64,000 nucleotides of DNA, from positions 1-64,000 of the forward strand of contig JALSTK010000069.1 of NCBI GenBank assembly GCA_026983775.1. Reading direction: 5' to 3'. A program made the position numbers and the translations under genes. Each line of letters starts with the position of its first letter. The stretch's first letter is position 1. Source of the DNA: Calditrichia bacterium. Lineage in GTDB: Bacteria; Calditrichota; Calditrichia; Calditrichales; Calditrichaceae. Below are positions 1 through 1,431 of the stretch, piece by piece. The notes under the pieces are model-generated. The model ran no database searches and was not told the DNA's origin. It worked only from the letters and a program-made list of their open reading frames with translations.

Positions 1-28
1 AAGCCTGTTTAGTTTATTAAACAGGCTT
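1..28 (-). terminator. Rho-independent terminator copy (unit 1)
   Basis: An 11-bp perfect stem AAGCCTGTTTA/TAAACAGGCTT with a 6-nt loop, identical to the hairpin after the intact tRNA-Glu. The expected T-tract lies beyond the window edge. Confidence 0.6.
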
Positions 29-32
29 CCTG

Positions 33-97
33 CACTCCCAATCCCGAGAATCGGGAGAACCCCTGTCGTCCCGAGAATCGGGATGGCCCAGGCCTCT
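33..97 (-). pseudogene. Broken tRNA-Glu copy with two palindromes
   Basis: On the minus strand this matches tRNA-Glu from the D-loop (AGAGGCCT) to the 3' acceptor strand (TTGGGAGTG), but the anticodon arm is replaced by the palindrome TCCCGATTCTCGGGA (69-83) and the T-loop by a second copy (42-56). The 5' acceptor strand is missing; the GIY-YIG gene abuts this side. It cannot fold into or act as a normal tRNA. The same structure recurs in unit 2. Confidence 0.75.
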
Positions 98-115
98 CTC
101 GGAAATTTATAATTT

Positions 116-367
116 CTATGAAAATCTCAATCCGAATTCTTCCCGTATACGATCGCGGTTCTTCAGCTTCTTTAACCGAAGTTCCTCTTTTATCGCCTCA
201 CCTCGTGTCTCAAATTCTTTAAAAGCTAACCATTCCCACGGCCCTCTGTCACGGGTGTAAGTGCTTCTTCCCGAATTGTGATATTCCAGACGAACCTGCA
301 AGTCTTGAGGCTGACCGATGTAATATCGACCGTCTTTTAAGGATTTTAAAAGATATACGTAATACAT
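116..367 (-). CDS. GIY-YIG family nuclease-like protein, copy 1
   Basis: An 83-residue single-domain protein of the small bacterial GIY-YIG family (UvrC-N/COG2827 type). The N-terminus reads YVYLLKS followed by RYYIGQ, the two halves of the GIY-YIG motif at residues 3-22. The conserved Arg of the family lies about residue 26, and there is a C-terminal basic helix with KEELRLKKLKNRDR. The family cuts DNA, but the role of the short stand-alone forms is unknown. The gene stands directly upstream of a palindrome-disrupted tRNA-Glu remnant and is duplicated with it. Copy 1 is intact while copy 2 is frameshifted. A homing-type or repeat-spreading role is possible but only inferred from context. Confidence 0.85.
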   Translation of the reverse strand: MYYVYLLKSLKDGRYYIGQPQDLQVRLEYHNSGRSTYTRDRGPWEWLAFKEFETRGEAIKEELRLKKLKNRDRIREEFGLRFS

Positions 368-380
368 ATCTATTTCTTTT

Positions 381-417
381 AATAAAAAAAAGCCTGTTTA
401 GTTTATTAAACAGGCTT
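381..417 (-). terminator. Rho-independent terminator copy (unit 2)
   Basis: The same 11-bp stem as at 779-806, followed on the minus strand by a T-rich run (381-389 on the plus strand is A-rich). It separates the two tandem units and should stop transcription of the upstream unit. Confidence 0.75.
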
Positions 418-421
418 CCTG

Positions 422-487
422 CACTCCCAATCCCGAGAATCGGGAGAACCCCTGTCGTCCCGAGAATCGGGATGGCCCAGGCCTTTC
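422..487 (-). pseudogene. Broken tRNA-Glu copy with two palindromes (unit 2)
   Basis: Same structure as the remnant at 33-97: tRNA-Glu D-loop to acceptor 3' strand, with palindromes at 431-445 and 458-472 where the T-loop and anticodon arm should be. It differs from unit 1 by very few bases, so the palindromes were in place before the unit was duplicated. Confidence 0.75.
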
Positions 488-504
488 TCGGAAATTTGTA
501 ATTT

Positions 505-757
505 CTATAAAAATCTCAATCCGAATTCTTCCCGTATACGATCGCGGTTCTTCAGCTTCTTTAACCGAAGTTCCTCTTTTATCGCCCTCACCTCGTGTCT
601 CAAATTCTTTAAAAGCTAACCATTCCCACGGCCCTCTGTCACGGGTGTAAGTGCTTCTTCCCGAATTGTGATATTCCAGACGAACCTGCAAGTCTTGAGT
701 CTGACCGATGTAATATCGACCGTCTTTTAAGGATTTTAAAAGATATACGTAATACAT
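505..757 (-). pseudogene. GIY-YIG nuclease gene, copy 2, frameshifted
   Basis: The first 57 residues equal copy 1 except one Gln-Thr for Gln-Pro at the GIY-YIG motif, where copy 2 has the usual family sequence YYIGQT. One extra C near 585-587 then shifts the frame, so the C-terminal basic helix is lost and an unrelated tail is read to 398. It could be a true pseudogene or a sequencing or assembly error in a run of Cs; the nearly perfect nucleotide match to copy 1 leaves both open. Confidence 0.75.
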
Positions 758-770
758 ATCTATTTCTTTT

Positions 771-806
771 AATAAAAAAAGCCTGTTTAGTTTATTAAAC
801 AGGCTT
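771..806 (-). terminator. Rho-independent terminator of tRNA-Glu
   Basis: An 11-bp stem AAGCCTGTTTA/TAAACAGGCTT with a 6-nt loop lies 5 bp past the tRNA-Glu 3' end on the minus strand and is followed by seven or more Ts. This is the original of the copies at 1-28 and 381-417. Confidence 0.85.
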
Positions 807-810
807 CCTG

Positions 811-883
811 CACTCCCAAGGGGATTCGAACCCCTGTCGTCGCCGTGAAAGGGCGATGTCCTAGGCCTCTAGACGATGGGAGC
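811..883 (-). tRNA. tRNA-Glu (anticodon UUC)
   Basis: Minus-strand cloverleaf with acceptor arms GCTCCCA/TGGGAGT (first pair G-U), T-arm AGGGGTTCGAATCCCCT, and anticodon loop CTTTCAC carrying TTC. The discriminator base is G, and CCA is not encoded. It is the only intact member of a local family of six tRNA-Glu-derived sequences. Confidence 0.95.
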
Positions 884-1111
884 TTCATTTTTCAATCCAT
901 CTGCAGAAAACCTGTCGTCCCGAAAATCGGGATGTCCTAGGCCTCTAGACGATGGGAGCTTCATTTTTCAATCCATCTGCAGAAAACCTGTCGTCCCGAA
1001 AATCGGGATGACCCAGGCCTCTAGACGATGGGAGCTTCATTTTTCAATCCATCTGCAGAAAACCTGTCGTCCCGAAAATCGGGATGTCCTAGGCCTCTAG
1101 ACGATGGGGGC
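884..1111 (-). repeat. Three tandem 76-bp tRNA-Glu half-gene repeats with palindromes
   Basis: The tRNA-Glu 5' half (acceptor strand plus D-arm) recurs at exact 76-bp steps; the AGACGATGGG block starts at 871, 947, 1023 and 1099. In each extra copy the anticodon arm is replaced by TCCCGATTTTCGGGA (918-932, 994-1008, 1070-1084). After CGACAGG the tRNA breaks off into a shared spacer with CTGCAG, so the T-arm and 3' acceptor strand are missing. The copies lie upstream of the intact tRNA and run in the same direction. No copy can be a working tRNA. The units are nearly identical and have no variable spacers, so this is not CRISPR. Confidence 0.9.
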
Positions 1112-1187
1112 TTCATTTTTCATTCCATCCCTAAAAATCTTTCGTCCCGAGTAGCGGGATTCAACCCATGGAATTCAAAGATTTGAG

Positions 1188-1263
1188 GGTGAGTGATGGG
1201 ACTCGAACCCATGACCCCCAGAGCCACAATCTGGTGCTCTAACCAAGCTGAGCTACACCCACC
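1188..1263 (-). tRNA. tRNA-His (anticodon GUG)
   Basis: Anticodon loop TTGTGGC gives GUG. Acceptor GTGGGTG pairs with CACTCAC. The extra G at 1263 (G-1) faces C73 at 1188, the hallmark identity element of tRNA-His. T-arm ATGGGTTCGAGTCCCAT. Confidence 0.95.
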
Positions 1264-1275
1264 ATAATATTTTAG

Positions 1276-1349
<74 letters not shown>

Positions 1350-1356
1350 AACCTCG

Positions 1357-1431
1357 TCGGGGCGAGAGGATTTGAACCTCCGACCCCCTGCTCCCAAGGC
1401 AGGTGCGCTAACCGGACTGCGCTACGCCCCG
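1357..1431 (-). tRNA. tRNA-Pro (anticodon UGG)
   Basis: Anticodon stem CCTGC/GCAGG encloses loop CTTGGGA, giving UGG. Acceptor CGGGGCG/CGCCCCG, discriminator A. First gene of the minus-strand Pro-Arg-His cluster. Confidence 0.95.

Follow-up and report, generated by a model that had tools for sequence, protein, structure and literature searches.

Why should the only intact copy of a tRNA gene lie among broken copies of itself, each carrying a palindrome, and beside a row of small nuclease genes? This arrangement occupies one end of the 64,000-nucleotide stretch of a Calditrichota genome that was analyzed here (the window), whose contig starts inside the array, with window position 1 being the contig end. 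The intact gene encodes tRNA-Glu(UUC), and it is the sole intact copy found by a DNA search of its own 4.03-Mb genome. A sequence-only reading of this DNA had described five broken copies flanking the intact gene, with a palindrome replacing the anticodon arm in each, and this description is confirmed in the sequence (Table 1).

Table 1. Coordinates of the features in and around the tRNA-Glu array of the window
Feature	Position	Strand	Basis or detail
Broken tRNA-Glu, second 3′-type copy	31–97	-	Palindromes 69–83 and 42–56
GIY-YIG ORF, 83 aa, intact copy	116–367	-	ORF list; PF01541 E=1.9e-14
GIY-YIG ORF, frameshifted copy (homologous part about 539–757)	398–757	-	One extra base in the sequence
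Broken tRNA-Glu, 3′-type copy	420–486	-	tRNA ~14–27, palindrome 458–472, tRNA 45–56, palindrome 431–445, tRNA 3′ end
tRNA-Glu terminator hairpin	779–806	-	Repeat families and inverted repeats
Intact tRNA-Glu (UUC)	810–883	-	ARAGORN; Rfam 59.5 bits
Broken tRNA-Glu, 5′-type copy 1	911–959	-	Palindrome 918–932 replaces anticodon arm
Broken tRNA-Glu, 5′-type copy 2	987–1035	-	Palindrome 994–1008
Broken tRNA-Glu, 5′-type copy 3	1063–1111	-	Palindrome 1070–1084
Decayed 5′-type unit remnant	1134–1160	-	Palindrome 1145–1159; 81% identity, repeat family
tRNA-His, tRNA-Arg and tRNA-Pro, upstream of tRNA-Glu	1187–1431	-	

Upstream of the intact gene, at higher coordinates, there are three tandem 76-bp units, each composed of a leader, tRNA positions 1–27, TCCCGATTTTCGGGA and tRNA positions 45–49. 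Downstream, two units of approximately 389 bp (1–389 and 390–778) follow the order GIY-YIG ORF, tRNA positions ~14–27, TCCCGATTCTCGGGA, tRNA positions 45–56, TCCCGATTCTCGGGA, the tRNA 3′ end and the tRNA’s own terminator. The anticodon arm is replaced by a hairpin of the form TCCCGA-N-TCGGGA, as is part of the T arm in two of the copies. The 28-bp terminator is repeated behind broken copies at 1–28 and 390–417. The sequence-only reading had recognized the two GIY-YIG units with their terminators and second palindromes, which stand, but only one of the two ORFs is intact and the other is frameshifted. Its description can be extended by a decayed fourth upstream unit and by a continuation of the array: the end of contig C42 has the same sequence as window positions 1–~117 and that contig has a third GIY-YIG copy, which is truncated and accompanied by two further palindromes. 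The array probably continues on that contig.

The palindrome pattern TCCCGANNNTCGGGA occurs at 12 places in the genome and the reversed control pattern at none, so the count is not a product of chance. Nine of the sites are in the tRNA-Glu array (seven in the window and two on C42), two are just upstream of tRNA-Ser(UGA) and one lies away from any tRNA. In the same genome, tRNA-Val(CAC) (L059, contig C124) and tRNA-Ser(UGA) (L022, C135) are each associated with three tandem hairpin-bearing broken copies without an adjoining GIY-YIG gene, which suggests either that the gene acts in trans or that it has been lost. Other small GIY-YIG subfamilies (L002, L003 and L005, on contigs C26, C161 and C165) have no tRNA link and reside within different intergenic palindromic repeats (GTCATTCCCG..CGGGAATCC; TCCCGACCCGTCGGGA with ACTCAACGAGCG; TCATTCTGAATCCCGC..GCGGGATTCAGAATCC). 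This setting hints at a broader link between GIY-YIG genes and palindromes.

The profile search places the window protein in the GIY-YIG superfamily (PF01541), and the active site by which members are recognized (Tyr/Tyr, Arg, His, Glu) is conserved. The tRNA-linked nucleases are mostly 80–96 amino acids long and UPF0213-like, with the GIY-YIG domain spanning nearly the whole protein. Across 90 of them, residues Y5, Y16, G18, R26, H30, E62 and K66 are invariant or nearly so. This near-invariance, together with dN/dS values of 0.06–0.5 wherever they were computable, indicates a protein that is under selection, with episodes of decay. In Pedobacter puniceum (L236, 1257–1499) the catalytic Glu has been lost (E62G), while close relatives keep it. 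At L047 (about 1485–1500) the GIY-YIG start codon shares bases with the CCA end encoded by a tRNA-Cys gene (CCATGG).

The closest solved sequences are 1zg2 (UPF0213 protein BH0048, E=1.1e-18) and 1ywl (E=6e-16), followed by SLX1 (E 5e-9), and no NCBIfam model matched the protein. No separate DNA-recognition region is evident beside the catalytic domain in the ~80-amino acid protein, and typical homing endonucleases possess a separate DNA-binding domain. The protein is a member of the GIY-YIG superfamily; it is not classed as a homing endonuclease because this recognition region is missing and both cutting and spread are putative.

The sequence-only reading would have been contradicted had the linkage of palindrome, tRNA and GIY-YIG gene recurred in no relative; the linkage does recur, in many phyla. 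The architecture is found in Calditrichota, Bacteroidota, Ignavibacteriota, Balneolota, Chlorobiota and other phyla on a common plan, in which a small UPF0213-like GIY-YIG ORF, on the same strand as the tRNA, has the intact tRNA on one side and a broken version of it on the other. There are two layouts: tRNA, GIY-YIG and broken 3′ part, or broken 5′ part, GIY-YIG and tRNA. Loci came from a search of 60 genomes with the window protein, in which they were chosen by protein similarity alone, from a scan of named genomes whose query was a Ser-linked alignment (A2), which biases that set toward tRNA-Ser, and from a sample of 99 Bacteroidota species, 55 of which had a match. Flanks were taken as complete where at least 450 bp were present on either side of the ORF, and a tRNA was counted if it lay on the same strand within 400 bp. 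Among complete-flank loci of the named set, 55 of 62 have a same-strand tRNA and 51 of 62 a broken copy of that tRNA. The corresponding figures are 22/26 and 21/26 for the Bacteroidota set, and 11/15 for both in the 60 genomes. In the named set, 81 tRNAs within 400 bp of the ORF are on its strand and none on the opposite strand, and at distances from the ORF above 1.5 kb the tRNA density is down to about 0.02 per kb.

At least 13 cognate isotypes are involved (Ser, Glu, Cys, Val, Asn, Pro, Asp, Leu, Thr, Arg, Gly, Gln and Ala). A near-exact analog of the window occurs on tRNA-Ser(GGA) in a Bacteroidota genome (L297), with tandem TCCCGAAAAAATCGGGA units. When a tRNA-agnostic pattern of hairpin plus T-arm was applied to the window’s own class, 31 of 40 genomes contained it, as against about three matches for the reversed pattern. 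An assembly artefact is an unlikely general cause, as a 5-Mb genome assembled into one contig (G005: L033, L053) shows the architecture too, and so do isolates, among them Pedobacter puniceum and Litoribacter ruber. L302 (on contig C34 of genome G139) has a tandem series of eight GIY-YIG units, spaced by about 365 bp and accompanied by tRNA 3′-like pieces and a repeated terminator. No intact tRNA was called near these eight units, and the host genome has at least 19 such GIY-YIG genes.

The broken copies contain 79 insert events, of which 46 are clean, defined as at least 15 nt long with no tRNA base lost. All 46 clean inserts fall in the D arm, anticodon loop or T-loop (anticodon loop 16, T-loop 14, D-loop 11, D arm 5). 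The 14 in the T-loop are all at C56|R57 and split GGTTC|GAATC exactly. The modal insert is 22 bp and consists of two 11-nt hairpins, each with a stem of 4 bp and a loop of 3 nt, e.g., TCCC GAA GGGA followed by TTCC TTC GGAA; it can alternatively fold into one longer hairpin. The stems of the 22-mers covary, with 184 of 200 Watson–Crick pairs (92%) compared with a mean of 146 (73%) and a maximum of 160 in shuffles, which ignore relatedness and overstate independence. In Calditrichota the commoner form is a single hairpin of 15–19 nt that replaces an arm. Here 150 of 156 arm positions are paired, against a shuffled mean of 107.6 and a maximum of 120, and these shuffles likewise ignore relatedness and overstate independence. 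Since the inserts sit exactly in tRNA loops, it is plausible that the hairpin is a cut or insertion mark, as the sequence-only reading proposed. The ends of the broken copies differ in position among loci, and thus no single cut site fits every locus.

The relationship between nuclease and tRNA was examined with a tree of 102 linked proteins over 84 columns, in which resolution is limited and many forks are unresolved. The isotype label requires 26 changes on this tree, compared with 46.4 in shuffles (none of 200 as low), while the host group label requires 52. By these counts, the nuclease tree tracks the isotype of the tRNA more closely than the phylum of the host. The window genome has two tRNA-linked lineages, Glu and Cys, and each groups with proteins that are linked to its isotype in other genera or phyla. 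Isotype clades mix phyla, whereas the one close comparison, in Pedobacter, shows vertical inheritance, and the clustering by isotype could stem in part from old insertions that were vertically inherited. One label is doubtful: the protein beside a 95-nt “tRNA-Glu(ctc)” (L034/L083) groups with Ser-linked ones, and ARAGORN may have misread a tRNA-Ser copy filled with hairpins as this tRNA. Hairpin-filled copies were apparently called as genuine tRNAs both there, near a GIY-YIG gene, and at L030 (1956–2034). tRNA finders may take such copies for real tRNAs, and automatic annotations may contain false tRNAs.

Empty and filled versions of the same site can be compared in two settings. The Pro-Arg-His-Glu tRNA cluster, to which the window’s tRNA-His, tRNA-Arg, tRNA-Pro and tRNA-Glu belong, is syntenic in Calditrichota. 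A GIY-YIG gene follows tRNA-Glu in nine Calditrichota genomes, the window’s included; the cluster is clean of any GIY-YIG trace in L168 and L172, and relics are present in L166, L171, L174, L175 and L176. In the genus Pedobacter, 16 orthologous pgpH/tRNA-Ser(GCU) sites comprise 3 filled, 1 relic and 12 empty. At the filled sites the broken tRNA is at the native position behind promoter-like sequence, and the intact tRNA lies a few bases past the ORF. The nuclease gene is thus found at or next to its presumed target gene, and orthologous alleles lack it, as is required of a free-standing homing endonuclease. The Pedobacter element is about as diverged as its flanks and is therefore vertically inherited; a recent horizontal jump in this genus is unsupported.

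Taken together, the best explanation is a tRNA-parasitic selfish element resembling a homing endonuclease, which we hold to be somewhat more probable than its negation. The sequences show that the arrangement recurs in a constant orientation, that the broken copies are cognate to the adjoining tRNA and carry inserts exactly in their loops with covarying stems, that empty sites and relics exist, and that the nuclease is under purifying selection, has a conserved active site and follows isotype in its phylogeny. In the proposed scheme, a minimal GIY-YIG gene (about 80–96 aa) would sit within the tRNA transcription unit, on the tRNA’s strand, and use its promoter. Each nuclease would act on a single isotype and cut its tRNA genes in the vicinity of the T-loop, anticodon loop or D-loop. 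Repair would then bring in the nuclease gene with a piece of tRNA, such that one complete tRNA would always be restored and a partial second copy would remain across the nuclease gene. The loops of this partial copy would subsequently be interrupted by hairpins, either 22-bp double hairpins or TCCCGA..TCGGGA in place of an arm. These could bar the spare copy from tRNA processing or use, and could break up the direct repeat so that recombination would not delete the element. More rounds would give rise to tandem arrays, whose copies would decay through frameshift, truncation and loss of the active site.

We infer DNA cutting, homing or horizontal spread, and the origin and role of the hairpins. 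Several observations weigh against the parasitic element: the resident intact tRNAs retain the supposed target sequence, which leaves self-protection unexplained; the domain-only protein of ~80 aa is without an evident DNA-binding part; and the Pedobacter element has been inherited with its flanks. The sequence-only reading had envisaged a self-spreading GIY-YIG element targeting tRNA-Glu. A self-spreading GIY-YIG element linked to tRNA genes is strongly favored by the recurrence, the empty sites and the isotype-specific nuclease lineages, but the restriction to tRNA-Glu does not hold.

Among the alternatives, the one that survives best treats the hairpin as the mobile unit in the manner of REP/RAYT systems. 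The GIY-YIG protein would insert palindromes into tRNA loops in trans, and the tRNA duplication would be a by-product. We consider this unlikely, although it would account for inserts that are discrete, of a modal length and loop-exact, and for the hairpin-bearing broken copies at tRNAs that have no adjoining GIY-YIG gene (L022 and L059, and also L171). One 22-bp hairpin insert has in addition been duplicated as an extra unit in L236 relative to L237. Against it, the tested double-hairpin pattern gave three matches in 10 host genomes, two of them at known tRNA locus coordinates, which rules out dispersed REP-like repeats for this format. TCCCGANNNTCGGGA is likewise nearly restricted to tRNA loci in its own genome. 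Insert sequences vary between loci while the stem format is constant, unlike copies of one repeat.

A further proposal is that the arrays are useful to the host, with the nuclease amplifying tRNA-derived segments for tRNA dosage or as decoys against tRNA-cutting toxins or defences. SegB in phage T6 offers a precedent, and arrays reach eight tandem 5′-half copies (L033) or eight GIY-YIG copies (L302). The amplified copies are, however, broken in their loops and missing one acceptor strand, and so add no functional tRNA. The patchy presence, relics and dead copies resemble gain and loss rather than retention, and none of the PADLOC models of catalogued anti-phage defence matched (0 families), which removes a known anti-phage system from consideration. 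The host-benefit proposal is accordingly doubtful.

Slightly more doubtful again is an RNA device, whereby the broken copies would be transcribed as tRNA-like structures that regulate how the GIY-YIG mRNA or the tRNA is expressed or processed. The constant strand is in keeping with this, as is the closeness of the ORF to the tRNA, often at a distance of 0–5 nt (in 10 of the 55 upstream cases), and inserts located in loops would allow stems to persist. When whole broken copies were folded, four of five cases were no stabler than shuffles (z -0.17 to -1.38; the remaining one -2.50). Copies of the 3′ type are without the 5′ acceptor strand, and copy number ranges from 0 to 8, both of which speak against such a device. 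Rfam reported only the four ordinary tRNAs above its gathering scores, and three sub-threshold matches (SSRC10, mir-303 and Plastid-ycf2) were judged to be chance, excluding a known RNA family. The suggestion in the sequence-only reading of a source of tRNA-like small RNAs found no test in its favor. The last alternative, already disfavored and highly improbable, is a passive by-product: tRNA genes would be duplicated by slippage or unequal crossover, with small GIY-YIG genes as hitchhikers and palindromes left by fold-back repair. Tandem arrays with decaying copies are indeed products of unequal crossover, but this model does not predict that 13 isotypes in many phyla would have cognate broken copies, nor does it predict the exact loop sites, the covarying stems, the purifying selection on the nuclease or its isotype-wise clades.

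If the selfish-element reading is true, many bacteria harbor a selfish nuclease in their tRNA genes, even in essential ones present as a single copy, and it has been overlooked owing to the tiny size of its gene and to arrays that break assemblies. Small GIY-YIG (UPF0213-like) proteins that are otherwise unassigned would gain a likely role, and there would be a route to examine the making of short, fixed-format hairpins at defined genome sites. The chances are about evenly divided as to whether this is a new class of bacterial mobile element, i.e., minimal GIY-YIG nucleases, each dedicated to an isotype, that invade essential tRNA genes, restore the tRNA on insertion and inactivate the spare copy by double hairpins placed exactly in its loops, in many phyla and on most isotypes. 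No bacterial account of this tRNA/GIY-YIG/hairpin architecture was found in the open-licence papers searched.

Known systems resemble the locus in part. A search of viral contigs gave no match and phage records only two weak partial matches, which argues against a phage origin. A prophage or integrative element with a tyrosine integrase at a tRNA is rejected on the same viral-contig result and on the unit itself, which is ~389 bp with one ORF. REP/RAYT systems also combine short palindromes with an associated gene for a DNA-processing enzyme. The RAYT enzymes belong to the tyrosine (HUH) transposases and REP sequences are dispersed, whereas the enzyme here is GIY-YIG and the hairpins are essentially limited to tRNA copies. 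As there is no Y1/HUH IS200-like transposase and the palindromes are not dispersed through intergenic DNA, the locus is not a REP/RAYT system. In fungal mitochondria (Allomyces and others), mobile endonuclease ORFs carry part of the target gene and thereby rebuild it, and short double hairpins occur in the same genomes. Those elements differ in being mitochondrial and in targeting protein genes, and we know of no description of their double hairpins filling the loops of dead tRNA copies beside a nuclease gene.

The small stand-alone GIY-YIG proteins of the UPF0213 type (1zg2, 1ywl) share the domain length and active-site residues. They are deposited as hypothetical proteins, and a link to tRNA genes was not found for them in the literature searched. 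SLX1 is a longer, structure-specific repair nuclease.

The closest tested precedent in behavior is SegB of phages T4 and T6, a free-standing GIY-YIG homing endonuclease encoded in a phage tRNA cluster (PMC13096335, PMC2988022). SegB cuts within tRNA genes with a favored motif of RAWTSGAAC, and its nuclease activity is required for the tandem amplification of tRNA-Tyr together with segB in phage T6 (PMC13096335). By our own reading, this motif is the complement of the tRNA T-loop GTTCSAWTY. The two systems share a nuclease gene that adjoins tRNA genes, tandem repeats of tRNA plus nuclease, and association with many isotypes. SegB is phage-borne, with another protein size and context, whereas the element described here is chromosomal and domain-only UPF0213-like; hairpin-filled partial tRNA copies are not reported in the cited passages on SegB. 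The element would thus be a chromosomal counterpart of phage SegB if the proposed scheme is true and, if homing were proved, would become a variant of the free-standing homing elements.
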